From Nitrospiraceae bacterium (GTDB lineage: Bacteria > Nitrospirota > Thermodesulfovibrionia > UBA6902), in contig QZJG01000025.1 in NCBI GenBank assembly GCA_003599275.1, positions 1 through 57,723 of the forward strand: DNA of 57,723 nt. Direction: 5' to 3'. The notes beneath the pieces are model-generated. The model saw nothing but the letters and a program-made list of their open reading frames with translations, was not told the origin of the DNA and did no database searches. The position numbers and the translations under genes were made by a program. Shown one piece after another: positions 39,033 through 43,639 of the stretch. The number at the start of each line of letters is the position of its first letter. Position 1 is the first letter of the stretch.

Positions 39033-40148
39033 ATGAGCCTGCTTGCCGACCTGCTCTCAAAGATAAAACAGCCCCAATTAAAAAGGGAGGTCCCGCCGAA
39101 TCTTAAAAATATAATACGGGATTCAGCAAAGAAATCCACTAATAGAAGAAGGCTGATCTTACTGTCTGTTCTGTTTGCTGTCGCTGTATCAGCCGGCGCA
39201 TATCTCGTCTATCTTACAAGGACCCTGACTGAAAAGCCTGTTAGCAATACTGACATAACATCGAAGGGAATACCTGCATCCGTAAAGCAGATGGAACCGG
39301 AAGGCGGAGCAGATAAAAATAATCCGCCTTTGTCATCTGCCGGCAAAACGGAGGACAATGCAATTCCTGTCCCGGGGAAAGAAAAAGTAGAGGGGGGTTC
39401 AGAAGAGAAGGAGAAAATCGCAACCCCGATCCGGCCCGCTGTAGCCGTCGGAAAACATAAAACGGAAAAAATATCGTTAGTCGCGGCAAAAGCCCCGGAT
39501 ATCAAAAATGAGAAAGATGCAACAGAAGAGGATGTGGCCCCCGACATGCTCCGTGCTACTCATCCGGAAACCGAAAAAAAACATGCAGGGGCAGACACCT
39601 ATCTATACAGAGCAAAAGAGTTTGAGATGAAAAAAGACTTTTCCGGGGCGCTTGCTAATTACAAGAAAGCGCTCGAGATGGAAAAGGACAATGCAGTCAT
39701 TATGAACAATATCGCATATATATTATTGGAGATGGACCTGATTGAGGAATCTATCAAGTATTCACAGATGGCGTTGGGGAAAAACAAAGACCATGCCGCT
39801 GCCCTGATCAACATCGGTATTGCTCATGCAAAGGCAGGGGACATTACTGCGGCGGGGGAGTATCTGAAACGCGCGTTTAGCCTGGAGCCCGACAACCGGC
39901 ACGTTGTCCTGAATCTTGCCGTCTTCCATGAAAAGCAGAAGGATTATGAAAGGGCTTCTGAATATTTCACGAGGCTGGCGCAATTGGGAGACGCGGAGGG
40001 GCCATTAGGCCTGGCGCGTATTTATGAAATACAGGGCAAAATAGAGGAAGCGATAAAACGTTACAGGGATATTTATGTAAATGGTGCATTGGATGAAAGG
40101 ACAAGGTCATTAGTAAGGCAGCGAATTATGGTCCTGCAAAATAGGTAG
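39033..40148 (+). CDS. TPR-repeat membrane protein with transposon-altered C-terminus
   Basis: The 371-aa protein has a cytoplasmic N-terminus (MSLLADLLSKIKQPQLKREV), one membrane helix (about 41-63), a long Lys/Glu/Pro linker and about five TPR units (about 190-350). The layout resembles the TPR proteins of type IV pilus or MSHA-type systems; this is inference. The element at 40144 is inserted within the last codons. The current end is VLQNR, with Arg and stop supplied by the element. Joining the two target-site copies restores VLQNMKY and a TGA stop. Confidence 0.82.
   Translation: MSLLADLLSKIKQPQLKREVPPNLKNIIRDSAKKSTNRRRLILLSVLFAVAVSAGAYLVYLTRTLTEKPVSNTDITSKGIPASVKQMEPEGGADKNNPPLSSAGKTEDNAIPVPGKEKVEGGSEEKEKIATPIRPAVAVGKHKTEKISLVAAKAPDIKNEKDATEEDVAPDMLRATHPETEKKHAGADTYLYRAKEFEMKKDFSGALANYKKALEMEKDNAVIMNNIAYILLEMDLIEESIKYSQMALGKNKDHAAALINIGIAHAKAGDITAAGEYLKRAFSLEPDNRHVVLNLAVFHEKQKDYERASEYFTRLAQLGDAEGPLGLARIYEIQGKIEEAIKRYRDIYVNGALDERTRSLVRQRIMVLQNR
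40136..40143. repeat. Target-site duplication, left copy (GCAAAATA)
   Basis: GCAAAATA directly abuts the left terminal inverted repeat. The identical octamer follows the right terminus at 43632-43639. Confidence 0.9.
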
Positions 40149-40165
40149 TGGGTCAGTTTGAATTT
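40144..40165 (+). repeat. Left terminal inverted repeat
   Basis: GGTAGTGGGTCAGTTTGAAT followed by TT. It matches the right end except G/C at position 17. Confidence 0.92.
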
Positions 40166-40184
40166 TCGAGATAGCAGAAATAAA

Positions 40185-40856
40185 TTAGTTGGTAGGATTA
40201 GAAGAAGTTGACGGAGAAGAGATTTCCGCTTGCCCTTGTTTTACATTACCAGATTGACCCTTAAATTTTATTCCTTGAAAGCCAAAGATTAAAAACAAAA
40301 AAGTTAAAACAGTAATCCAAAAAATTGCTGAGTTTCGTCTTTGTGCTTTTAATTGTTTATTCAGCTCTGTCCGTGCTATAGAGGCTTTTTTAACAATTGC
40401 TTTTAGTTGGTCAAACATCTCTTCAAATTCTCTGAAGTGATCTCCTGGATTATTTCTCGATGTTTCTGACGCCCTATCCCGTATACTTTCAATTGTTTCT
40501 AAATCTGTTATCCAATCTGACATAACATCAGTTATAACTACAGATTTATAATCGTCTTTAAATTTATCTAAATTTAATAAAAAGAAGCTGATGCCAGTTT
40601 CATATACATCATAAATCGCTCTTTTGCAATGATTTGCTGCTTTTAATAATTCGTCCTTATTGGTATTGCTCCCATCACTTCTTAGGTATCTCGCAAGATG
40701 ACAGCCAGCATATCTCAACTGATTTAGTGTTGGGACTGAAACAGCCTCAAGATGTCTTTCAATTTTCTTTAAGGCTTGTTCTGCTTGCGCATATAACTCC
40801 GCAACAATATTGGCATCAATGCTGTTTTGATCAACATAGAAGTGTTGGTGGGGCAT
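40185..40856 (-). CDS. Passenger protein with C-terminal membrane anchor
   Basis: This 223-aa unrecognised protein has a mostly alpha-helical soluble part (to about residue 170). One membrane helix (FWITVLTFLFLIFGFQGI, about 176-193) and a short Ser/Asn-rich tail follow. It starts 1 base after the 64-aa gene's stop (TAATATG), so the two are coupled. The architecture of a helical domain with a tail anchor is seen in some effectors and signalling proteins, but no function can be assigned. AT-rich codons are typical of the element. Confidence 0.65.
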   Translation of the reverse strand: MPHQHFYVDQNSIDANIVAELYAQAEQALKKIERHLEAVSVPTLNQLRYAGCHLARYLRSDGSNTNKDELLKAANHCKRAIYDVYETGISFFLLNLDKFKDDYKSVVITDVMSDWITDLETIESIRDRASETSRNNPGDHFREFEEMFDQLKAIVKKASIARTELNKQLKAQRRNSAIFWITVLTFLFLIFGFQGIKFKGQSGNVKQGQAEISSPSTSSNPTN

Positions 40857-40857
40857 A

Positions 40858-41052
40858 TTAATTTTTATGTTTTAGAGCCTTTTCTTTTAATTTGGAAATA
40901 TCAGAGGTTAACAAGTAACGTCCAAATTGCAGGAGGATATTGCCTGATGTGTGTTTCCTCACTGCCTTGTTAAGTAATTCTTCTTCATCTTTCTCTGTGT
41001 ATTTGGGAATAGTGGGGGGGATAAATATGGAAAAAATGGAGCGAAATGTCAT
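40858..41052 (-). CDS. Small passenger protein, 64 aa
   Basis: The protein is MTFRSIFSIFIPPTIPKYTE followed by DEEELLNKAVRKHTSGNILLQFGRYLLTSDISKLKEKALKHKN. The N-terminus is hydrophobic and the C-terminus basic. GGAGGG lies 7 bases before the ATG. GAGCGGTCA, a partial copy of the element's CTTGAGCGGTCAAG dyad, lies about 30 bases upstream. It is coupled to the 223-aa membrane protein gene. An immunity, antitoxin or adaptor role is speculation. Confidence 0.55.
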   Translation of the reverse strand: MTFRSIFSIFIPPTIPKYTEKDEEELLNKAVRKHTSGNILLQFGRYLLTSDISKLKEKALKHKN

Positions 41053-41264
41053 GCTAATACCCTCCGGCCCTCAGTATTTTTTATGACCGCTCCTCTTTCT
41101 AAGGAACTTACCATAGTACGTTACCAGCTTCTATAGAATCTGTCAAGTATTTTTTTTGATTTCTTCGGCACTTTGGTGTAATTTCTTAAACTGAGAACAC
41201 TAAGGTAATATTATGCACTAACTATCGGTTAGAAAATCAAGGGCTATAAAGATATTAGAAACTA

Positions 41265-42089
41265 TTATAGTAATAGAAATAAAATATCTTCAATATCCCA
41301 TAGACGATCTGTAACACCTGCCGCCATAGCAGGAGCACATCTTAATGTCTGATGTATCTGTCAGAAATTGTAATACATGAAATGAAGTGATACCGCATAA
41401 GTTAAGTTTTCAGCCTTCTTGCTGAACGCATTTGTAAGCCTTGTAAATCTTCTCATGCTCATACGCATAGTAAGATTCTGTCTTTCAACGTAGCTTGTCG
41501 AAACGTGCTTAGGATCGGGATTACCCTGTATTCTCTCTTTAATTATTCCTGTGCATTCAGCAGGGCTGTATTTCTTTTCCCCTTCAATATCATTGCCGTA
41601 AAGCTTTATAAGCTGACTATAATCTATCTCAGAACCGAAAGCATTTTCTACCGCATTTAGATAAGGTTTAAACCCGTCTGTAGTTAACTGCACTCTGTTT
41701 TTTAAACGCTCTGATAAATCCTTTATAAATATTGTTGCATTCTCTAAAGTCCTCTTTCCGACTAACCATGAAGGGACAAGCTTTGATTCTGAACAGATAG
41801 AAGTAAACGTGTAACAATCACCATACCCAAATTTGCCCTTTTTCTCATCCGGGACATTCTTTTCTTTCATAGCACAGAATGACCATATTTCATCACACTG
41901 GATAAGTTTGCATTCTAAATTTCTGAATGCGTTGTCTTGATAGTCAGCACAAGCCATACCGATATCAGCTAACAGTTTTAACACTGTGCCCTTTGCTACA
42001 CCTGTCATTCTACAGGTTGCCCGGATAGAATTGCCTTCAACTAGTGCCGCTATGATTTGCTTCTGTTTATCTGTTTTCAATCTGTTCAT
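41265..42089 (-). pseudogene. IS1-family-type DDE transposase with a nonsense codon
   Basis: The N-terminal helix-turn-helix (IAALVEGNSIRATCRMTGVAKGTV) is followed by a DDE domain: Asp66 in IQCDEIWSF, Asp138 in LTTDGFKPY, Glu202 in SYVERQN. MRMSMRRFTRLTNAFSKK is the strongly conserved stretch after Glu202. The reading frame stops at TGA (41361-41363) after YYNF, where homologues have Cys. In-frame translation then continues QIHQTLRCAPAMAAGVTDRL to TAA at 41265. A single base change therefore removes about 32 C-terminal residues. All three catalytic residues precede it, so partial activity is not excluded. Confidence 0.82.
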
Positions 42090-42095
42090 ATTTAT

Positions 42096-42127
42096 ATTGT
42101 ACTTGACCGCTCAAGCATTTGTCAAGA
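42096..42127 (-). promoter_or_regulatory. Transposase promoter with CTTGAGCGGTCAAG dyad
   Basis: On the minus strand TTGACA, 18 bases, TACAAT. The spacer holds the perfect 14-bp palindromic dyad CTTGAGCGGTCAAG (42102-42115). The same dyad lies in the promoter of the 90-aa gene. Confidence 0.65.
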
Positions 42128-42155
42128 TAAAAATGATTGATGCCGAAATATTGTC

Positions 42156-43175
42156 TCAATCTCTATAATCAAGTTTTAAAGTCTTCCCATATTTTTGCTT
42201 CGCTAAATCTAAGCGTTCCTTAAAGTCATCCCAACTTTTGCAGGTTTTCATGAGAAATATAACATTGGATAGCAAGTCTTTTAGCTCAGGATGTCCATAA
42301 TCAATTGTAAGATGTTGGAAAAACTTTCGTGAACGATTGCCAGAGGGAAGACGTGGATTTTTCTTTTTTAATTCTTCTAAGACCCCCGGTGCCAATCGAG
42401 AATATATAATATCATTTGTCCAGTGACCAACATAACTTGGCTTTTTTGTTGAAGATGGAATAGGCGGATATGGGACATTTTTCAGTCTGAATAATTCTCG
42501 ATAATATTCATCGGGGAAAGTTTTTGTCCATTTTGCCCATTCATCGGTTAAATATTTATCTAATATTTTTTGTAAAGCTATGCGGTCTCTGATTTCCTGA
42601 TATCCTGTTGCTTCATCAACAAGTGCGATAATCCCAACATGTGCAAGTCCGCGCATCACAATATCACAAGCCTTAACAATATGTTGATATTGACGTGGTA
42701 TTTGCTTGTTTTCTGATAAATAGTAATCTCTCATTTTCAAATATACTTCCGCCACCATAGGAAGCAGTTGAGCATCATACCCGACCATTTTCTTCCCGCT
42801 TTTATTAATAAAAAAAATGGGCGTGGTCGACATTAACAAGTCTTCGGAAATAAACGGTTTTAACGCTTCAGCCTGTAAAAAGAAGGGGATTCCGTCGACT
42901 GTGCTCAATACTCCAGTTCCAGCTTTAGGTGTGCGTGATCTGCCTAATGTTGTTAAAAATGCTGATTGAGTTAGTACCCGCTTCCCATTCGGCAACACGG
43001 CAGCAGATAAAATATTTTGACCTATTTTTAGAGTCCCTTCATATTCTGCCTTTGGCACATCAGCATTCCATCTTGCCGAAGCCGCTTTGCTTGCAATGTC
43101 TCTTCTCTGCTCTGGCGATAATACCTCTGCCCGCGCATGACCACCTTTGGCTTTATTGTTGTCTTTTTCTTCCAT
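42156..43175 (-). CDS. P63C-domain protein
   Basis: This 339-aa protein ends in a P63C domain (about residues 215-325): EWAKWTKTFPDEYYRELFRLKN, THDII-like TNDIIYSRLAPGVLEELKKKNP, then LTIDYGHPELKDLLSNVIFLMK and SWDDFKERLD. P63C is known from phage-type and plasmid-type proteins but has no assigned activity. The N-terminus carries the motif GGHARAEVLSPEQRRDIASK with AASARW after it, also present in the 90-aa protein next door. GGAGGTG precedes the ATG. A promoter with a 9-bp dyad controls it. Confidence 0.8.
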   Translation of the reverse strand: MEEKDNNKAKGGHARAEVLSPEQRRDIASKAASARWNADVPKAEYEGTLKIGQNILSAAVLPNGKRVLTQSAFLTTLGRSRTPKAGTGVLSTVDGIPFFLQAEALKPFISEDLLMSTTPIFFINKSGKKMVGYDAQLLPMVAEVYLKMRDYYLSENKQIPRQYQHIVKACDIVMRGLAHVGIIALVDEATGYQEIRDRIALQKILDKYLTDEWAKWTKTFPDEYYRELFRLKNVPYPPIPSSTKKPSYVGHWTNDIIYSRLAPGVLEELKKKNPRLPSGNRSRKFFQHLTIDYGHPELKDLLSNVIFLMKTCKSWDDFKERLDLAKQKYGKTLKLDYRD

Positions 43176-43197
43176 GCTTACACCTCCATTAATGTTA

Positions 43198-43234
43198 GTG
43201 CTTGCATTGTAAATTGTGCAAGCACAAAAGTCAA
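43198..43234 (-). promoter_or_regulatory. Promoter and operator-like dyad of the P63C gene
   Basis: On the minus strand TTGACT (43229-43234), 17 bases, TACAAT (43206-43211). The dyad GTGCTTGCA-N10-TGCAAGCAC (43198-43225) covers the spacer and the -10. Confidence 0.65.
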
Positions 43235-43293
43235 TGGGGTTAAAATATGGGGGAACATCGGTTAATGATGATGAGAATTTGTTAGGGGAAATT

Positions 43294-43566
43294 TTATTTG
43301 GACGACCAACGAGCCTTAGCGGCCTTTTGCGCTATCTCTTTGCGCTTCTTAGCAGACAGAGATTCTGCTCTAGCCTTGCCGCCCTTAAGTCCGCCACGTT
43401 GACCGAGTAGAACGGCAAGCGGGTCTTTACCCTCTGCAATGGCCTTCTGGACTATCTCTGAATCAAATAGGTTGTCAGTGGGTTTAACAAGCTGTCCAGT
43501 GGCTTGTGATACTATTGAGGATGCAATGAGGTTAATATCTGAAGTTTTTCTTTTCTTCTTATCCAT
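43294..43566 (-). CDS. Small basic passenger protein with RAESLS...KAAKARW motif
   Basis: The 90-aa protein ends in GGKARAESLSAKKRKEIAQK followed by AAKARWSSK. This matches the N-terminal motif of the P63C protein (about residues 11-38). The basic helix suggests nucleic-acid binding. The N-terminal part (MDKKKRKTSDINLIASSIVSQ...) is unrecognised. It is the first gene from the right end of the element. Its promoter contains the same dyad as the transposase promoter, so it may be the element's regulator; that is inference. Confidence 0.65.
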   Translation of the reverse strand: MDKKKRKTSDINLIASSIVSQATGQLVKPTDNLFDSEIVQKAIAEGKDPLAVLLGQRGGLKGGKARAESLSAKKRKEIAQKAAKARWSSK

Positions 43567-43579
43567 GCCTTTAGTGTAG

Positions 43580-43604
43580 CATGGTATTCTTGAGCGGTCA
43601 AGAT
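43580..43604 (-). promoter_or_regulatory. Promoter of the 90-aa gene with CTTGACCGCTCAAG dyad
   Basis: On the minus strand TTGACC, 17 bases, TACACT. The dyad (43590-43603) overlaps the -35. It is the reverse complement of the copy at 42102-42115. Confidence 0.6.
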
Positions 43605-43609
43605 GTCCT

Positions 43610-43631
43610 AAATTGAAACTGACCCACTACC
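43610..43631 (-). repeat. Right terminal inverted repeat
   Basis: Reverse complement begins GGTAGTGGGTCAGTTTCAAT. It abuts the right GCAAAATA copy at 43632. Confidence 0.92.
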
Positions 43632-43639
43632 GCAAAATA
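43632..43639. repeat. Target-site duplication, right copy (GCAAAATA)
   Basis: Exact copy of 40136-40143, immediately outside the right terminus. Confidence 0.9.

Follow-up and report, generated by a model that had tools for sequence, protein, structure and literature searches.

A probable unit transposon with an IS1-related transposase and a conserved second gene, whose exchangeable cargo is partly of toxin–antitoxin or anti-phage type, in a Nitrospiraceae bacterium

The 57,723-nt contig QZJG01000025.1 of a Nitrospiraceae bacterium (assembly GCA_003599275.1), which in its entirety is called the window below, contains an element of 3,488 bp (positions 40144–43631) delimited by 22-bp inverted ends. 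With a probability of roughly three in four, this element is a complete unit transposon with an IS1-related transposase, i.e., one of a family in which a conserved shell encloses slots that hold differing genes, some of them of toxin–antitoxin (TA) or anti-phage type. As judged from the sequence, the shell is composed of the inverted ends, a gene for a 90-aa protein (s90) close to one of these ends, and the transposase gene, which follows s90 downstream on the same strand. The gene order from the 43631 end, all on the minus strand, is s90, P63C, transposase, 64-aa gene and 223-aa gene, the same five open reading frames (ORFs) that a first-pass annotation, made by a model from the letters alone, had described. 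By this layout, slot 1 is the predicted P63C gene between s90 and the transposase, and slot 2 is the predicted 64-aa/223-aa pair beyond the transposase. It is the family that is of interest, as it combines a minimal IS1-related shell, a conserved second gene, and exchangeable and partly defensive cargo.

The terminal inverted repeat at the end beyond the transposase and slot 2 occupies 40144–40165 (plus strand), and the one adjoining s90 occupies 43610–43631 (minus strand). The two are identical at 21 of 22 positions and are directly flanked by identical octamers, GCAAAATA, at 40136–40143 and 43632–43639, just as the first-pass annotation had read them. The IS1 family is characterized by GGnnnTG ends and target duplications of 8–9 bp, and the window's element agrees with this rule, with GGTAGTG as its end and a duplication of 8 bp. 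The G+C content of the element is 38.0%, vs. 47.4% in one of the adjoining 10-kb flanks and 43.7% in the other. In the genome assembly (3.05 Mb, 88.6% complete), the element is present as a single copy, and the exact 16-mer of its ends occurs only at the window's own two sites; a third site is found with two mismatches, and a control pattern, i.e., the 16-mer read backward, gave 1 and 2 sites.

Related elements were reached through P63C relatives in GTDB contigs, each with its own duplication, and through the transposase, matches to which (fragments included) were found in 43 of 295 genomes of the window's phylum and in 40 of 247 genomes of the phylum of the Acidobacteriota locus L007. Using a caller that required GGnnnTG, paired ends with a 7–9 bp duplication were detected at 59 of 75 fetched transposase loci, compared with none of 114 mock intervals, a control that is somewhat lenient because the mock stretches are shorter (median 4,665 nt, vs. 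12,801 nt for the loci). Both the 75 loci and the 59 elements include the window's element, and 14 of the 75 are loci fetched via P63C or the window itself; the 75 are mostly near-complete genes because most transposase fragments were left unfetched. The possibility that the ends are repeats that arose by chance and flank ordinary genes of the chromosome was rejected on the mock intervals, and is rendered extremely improbable also by the relatives, which have the same end type with different duplications. The duplication is 8 bp long in 54 of the 59 elements, 9 bp in four and 7 bp in one, so that 58 of 59 have 8 or 9 bp. The ends are identical at 16 of 16 positions in 44 elements, and at only 12 or 13 in five (L118, L263, L264, L266 and L269), which may include false calls. 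Element lengths range from 1,908 to 5,059 bp (median 3,065 bp), and with the shortest at 1,908 bp there is no bare insertion sequence among the 59. One further locus, L044, has matched ends but lacks a duplication; it was included as element number 60 in the analysis of cargo and tree. Plasmid matches were found in 14 records, four of which were examined; s90 is present in all four, and paired ends with 8-bp duplications in three (Mesorhizobium loti, Hoeflea and Acidiphilium). A complete cargo-bearing IS1-type element, as first proposed for the window, is thereby borne out, and related elements with P63C and other duplications do exist in several phyla. An extra internal end-like sequence at L012:4695, within a 5-kb element, possibly reflects nesting or fusion.

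The transposase (41361–42089, minus strand) is a single open frame of 242 codons. The NCBIfam IS1 model NF033558 is matched by all 23 aligned transposases, the window's included, at E ≤ 0.001 (best 7.4e-21), whereas other models match fewer of the same 23, namely IS6 (18) and IS1595 (12, best 1.3e-5), and the best E-value is that of IS1. Membership in IS1595 was rejected on these numbers, the window's protein having no IS1595 match at all. Three residues, D66, D138 and E202, are invariant in all 23 and are taken by us, from the known motif, to be the DDE catalytic triad. A search of the transposase profile against solved structures gave a best E-value of only 0.29. The likeness to the IS1 family consists in the model match and in the ends and duplications. 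Classical IS1 has about 24 residues at the spacing that corresponds to D138–E202, and two ORFs, insA and insB, joined by a frameshift, although single-ORF IS1 relatives exist. The window's element differs in its 63-residue spacing, in its single ORF, in a score below the model's curated cut-off, in the additional gene s90, and in belonging to a set without a bare element. In two otherwise delimited elements, L013 and L056, the transposase match is split between frames.

The second gene of the shell, s90 (43294–43566, minus strand), encodes a 90-aa basic protein with a GGKARA..AKARW tail, a probable regulator. Relatives of s90 are found in 49 of the 59 delimited elements, and in 47 of them the gene is upstream of and co-oriented with the transposase and points inward, whatever the cargo; the other two matches (L046 and L267) are wrongly oriented and may be false. 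The profile match begins 39–82 nt from the element end in 37 of the 49, and an N-terminus resembling that of s90 is seen in L045, L046 and L053, as judged by eye only. Of the 44 s90 places judged full length in the 295 genomes of the window's phylum, 35 lie no more than 4 kb from a transposase, and five of the remaining nine keep a GGTAGTG end upstream. By this distribution, s90 is a backbone gene, not a passenger, and the initial count of four passenger genes was too high by this one, while P63C, the 64-aa gene and the 223-aa gene do stand as cargo. All five delimited elements with GGTAGTGTCYTAATTT ends have no s90 and possess instead another conserved protein of about 100 aa (motif ..VVWxGxVxVF..CYAWS..), found in none of the s90-bearing elements, with a model built from four of these five. 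It is encoded at L012:4786-5172, L114:3714-4010, L259:4605-4886 and L270:6852-7169, and also in L014, L262 and L265. The s90 gene of the Mesorhizobium loti plasmid (L316:2075-2284) is annotated as "histone H1", which is probably a misannotation.

A difference in cargo is apparent when close relatives are compared. Seventeen close pairs were chosen, and most of them have two conserved blocks, a left one of about 300 nt (the end and s90) and a right one of about 850 nt that starts some 45 nt ahead of the transposase; the DNA separating these blocks is unrelated. Exceptions are L275/L276, which have only the right block in common, L001/L005, which have P63C in common as well, and L109, L111, L115, L252 and L253, in which the left block is split or extended. 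On a tree of 59 transposases (59 of the 60 rows, L056 being too short, with stop signs removed and the frameshifted L013 read in one frame), the gene classes need 32 changes vs. a mean of 32.6 after shuffling, and a number as low was obtained in 93 of 200 shuffles. The cargo class does not follow the transposase tree. The idea that all genes of an element form one transposition gene set was ruled out, since close relatives differ.

The cargo was classified with models built from seeds picked by eye, and 149 of 157 cargo ORFs were scanned, the other eight being omitted as unlikely genes. P63C is found in 14 of the 60 elements, a share that is inflated because five of them (L005, L007, L012, L013 and L014) were reached solely through P63C. 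A coiled-coil/winged-helix protein is found in ten elements, a Gp49-like pair in five (three of these supported by Pfam) and a RosmerTA-like pair in two, with all members of these three classes serving as their own seeds. Seven elements carry a PD-lambda-2B-like helix-turn-helix/peptidase protein with a companion gene, the PD-Lambda-2_B family being matched by seven of the 149 ORFs, with 139 bits in L096. Among single elements, L101 matches RmrA (237 bits) and RmrT (50 bits), L114 matches HEC-06 (576 bits; GmrSD by Pfam), L056 and L098 contain HicA, Panacea is found in L044, L103, L253 and L275, and L102 has helix-turn-helix and M78 domains by Pfam. A DUF3467 gene accompanies the Gp49-like/XRE pairs in L251, L252, L255 and L093, suggesting a three-gene unit. 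Other cargo recurs as well, e.g., an AAA ATPase at L115:4046-5901 (Pfam; with a Clp protease) and L269:7132-8337 (by eye), an SDH-type serine protease at L097:7073-7993 (Pfam) and L276:6468-7529 (by eye), and a proteasome-like protein at L092:314-1000 (Pfam) and L256:4991-5851 (by eye).

The cargo could instead be randomly captured baggage, its TA content merely mirroring the general abundance of such genes in mobile DNA, as would fit the 22 of 60 elements that fall outside the named classes and the TA genes that are also common in Tn7-like cargo. However, no bare element is seen among the 59, and gene classes reappear on different branches of the tree, with the PD-lambda-2B-like class needing seven changes for its seven rows. 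We regard random baggage as unlikely.

In the window itself, slot 1 encodes a P63C protein of 339 aa (42156–43175, minus strand; PF10546, 105.9 bits), which also matches phrog_2384, a family of unknown function; against phrog_2899, the Ant type phage anti-repressors, the P63C domain scores only 20.6 bits. A search of the P63C profile against solved structures gave a best E-value of only 0.025, and among the literature on "P63C", judged by titles, no paper concerning P63C function was found. Slot 2 is occupied by the 64-aa gene (40858–41052, minus strand), which has no Pfam or NCBIfam match and lies one base before the 223-aa gene (40185–40856, minus strand). The 223-aa protein has a hydrophobic stretch near its C-terminus (by eye) and no match in the plasmids searched. 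Two-gene units of a soluble and a small membrane protein (by eye) also occur in the P63C elements L012 (7347-8560) and L047 (3314-4320), with C-termini that are alike by eye only. We infer a defence or addiction role for the window's cargo from its position alone.

A different role for slot 1 has to be weighed here, namely that P63C and the other proteins of this slot serve as accessory factors in transposition or regulate the transposon, rather than being addiction or defence cargo. In nine of the ten elements in which s90 was scored, P63C is located between s90 and the transposase, and the tenth, L046, resembles an s90 mis-hit. The GGKARA..AKARW tail of s90 recurs at the N-terminus of P63C (62% over 29 aa), and the P63C of L051 has a repressor-type helix-turn-helix in place of that tail; since the helix-turn-helix stands at the same position, the common tail of s90 and P63C may bind DNA. 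Upstream of the window's P63C gene there is also a GCTTGCA..TGCAAGC palindrome (43200–43223). The same pattern is found upstream of P63C in five of 14 elements, in one of which (L247) it is of the s90/transposase type described below, and precedes 20 of 72 viral P63C genes, compared with none of 72 inside the gene and two of 720 shuffled sequences; from the viral set only identical regions had been removed, and at least L133 and L177 in it carry the element's transposase. On the other hand, sister elements with close transposases hold unrelated genes in slot 1, the orientation of P63C is variable (nine opposite, five same), and P63C also occurs in phages and plasmids, all of which makes an accessory role somewhat unlikely.

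A further operator-like palindrome may connect s90 with the transposase. An exact 13-mer lies upstream of the transposase (42103–42115, plus strand), and the same 13-mer lies upstream of s90 (43589–43601, minus strand), with related sites in the relatives. In 29 of 59 elements, a related 18-nt palindrome (≥13 of 18 positions) precedes the transposase, compared with five of 1,180 shuffled sequences and none of 59 inside the gene; in 26 of 47, it precedes s90, compared with none of 940 shuffled sequences. These frequencies are suggestive of a regulatory role, with a palindrome that appears to be family-wide rather than element-specific, as matched pairs only slightly exceed mismatched ones.

Several observations weigh against the reading of the element as a transposon whose shell carries partly TA or anti-phage cargo. 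Mobility and expression of the element are predictions from its sequence; 16 of the 75 transposase loci have no end pair with duplication; and the window's transposase scores 52.4 bits against NF033558, for which the curated cut-off is 100. With regard to the cargo, TA or defence families are matched in 18 of the 60 elements, the other 42 having no recognized match, and this also favors random capture. The winged-helix class was grouped by eye with a model made of its own ten members, only one of which (L118) touches HARE-HTH, below the cut-off; the "Gp49" proteins of L252 and L255 have no Pfam match; of the seven PD-lambda-2B-like elements, just two (L096 and L108) have a recognized HigB-like gene; and in L096 PADLOC matches the B protein alone and neither of its two companions, one of which is HigB-like by Pfam. 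For the window, neither P63C nor the 223-aa protein matches any PADLOC family, and the predicted structure of P63C, with a mean predicted local distance difference test score (pLDDT) of 79.4 and a predicted template modeling score (pTM) of 0.56, gave no match in the PDB by Foldseek at E ≤ 0.001. As for the palindrome, the consensus was derived from the same data, the transposase-side copies are partly inherited, and strong words common to the s90 and transposase regions are found in 11 of 47 matched pairs vs. 55 of 400 mismatched ones.

With these points taken into account, it is still most likely that the conserved shell spreads and persists together with exchangeable addiction or anti-phage modules and is regulated by its own small protein, where the functions assigned to s90, to the slots, to exchange and to P63C each stand nearer to even odds or below. 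The s90 protein would bind the TGCTTGAnCGnTCAAGCA-type palindrome before itself and before the transposase and repress both. The slot modules would stabilize the element ("take me or die") or shield the host from phage, and the low-copy element would therefore be kept. Cassettes may be exchanged when the conserved blocks to the left and right recombine, and P63C may be an addiction or defence module that has a DNA-binding tail and regulates its own expression. The more specific proposal that the family is a dedicated shuttle, in which s90 (or the ~100-aa protein in one end-type group) represses the transposase via the common palindrome while block recombination swaps defence or addiction cassettes, is put forward only tentatively. 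If it is true, P63C and likewise the 64-aa/223-aa pair would represent anti-phage or addiction modules that have not been described, and the slots would serve as a catalogue in which to look for others.

Among published models, the closest is "take me or die", which was proposed for TA pairs in Tn3 transposons, where various TA types have been acquired several times near the transposition genes (PMC7157771). The family described here has a different transposase and no recognized resolvase, and its cargo includes anti-phage-type genes and P63C. Tn7-like transposons are larger, with several transposition genes, and use another transposition system. The parallel lies in their cargo, which is enriched in defence and TA genes, ImmA included (PMC8649781). 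Insertion sequences with passenger genes unrelated to transposition are described as tIS (PMC7986276 and PMC3129680), and the elements resemble them in that complete insertion sequence ends enclose such genes. They differ from tIS in that none of the delimited elements is without cargo, in that a conserved second gene accompanies it, and in that close relatives hold different cargo; in addition, the IS1595 model matches the transposases more weakly (12 of 23). The anti-phage system PD-lambda-2 (PMC9519451) has three components, A, B and C. The seven elements with a PD-lambda-2B-like protein and a companion, to which a HigB-like gene is added in L096 and L108, are similar to it; the L096 companions without a PADLOC match, the five elements in which HigB is unrecognized, and the window's element, which has no PD-lambda-2B-like protein, are not. 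No IS1-type element with TA or defence passengers was found by title or abstract start among the matches listed, a search in which most of the subscription literature and ISfinder were beyond reach, so that absence from print is not shown.

At the insertion site, the element lies at the 3′ end of a host gene for a TPR-repeat protein (39033–40148, plus strand; ORF list and domain match) and upstream of genes that resemble those for the ribosomal proteins L21 and L27 (names assigned by eye). An empty site in a relative had been named as confirmation of the insertion, and in one of seven same-genus loci compared, L121, an alignment at 69% runs across the joined flanks. This is weakly consistent with an empty site, which is not proven because the alignment, with small gaps, reaches only about 20 nt beyond the junction; the next gene beyond the junction was not found in L121 by a motif search.

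The family would help to explain how very small TA and anti-phage modules get from one phylum to a distant one. It draws attention to s90 as a second transposon gene, for which one public record gives the name "histone H1", and the family's slots may offer a guilt-by-position route to new modules, P63C included. The idea is testable, because cultured hosts (Mesorhizobium loti, Hoeflea and Acidiphilium) carry delimited elements.

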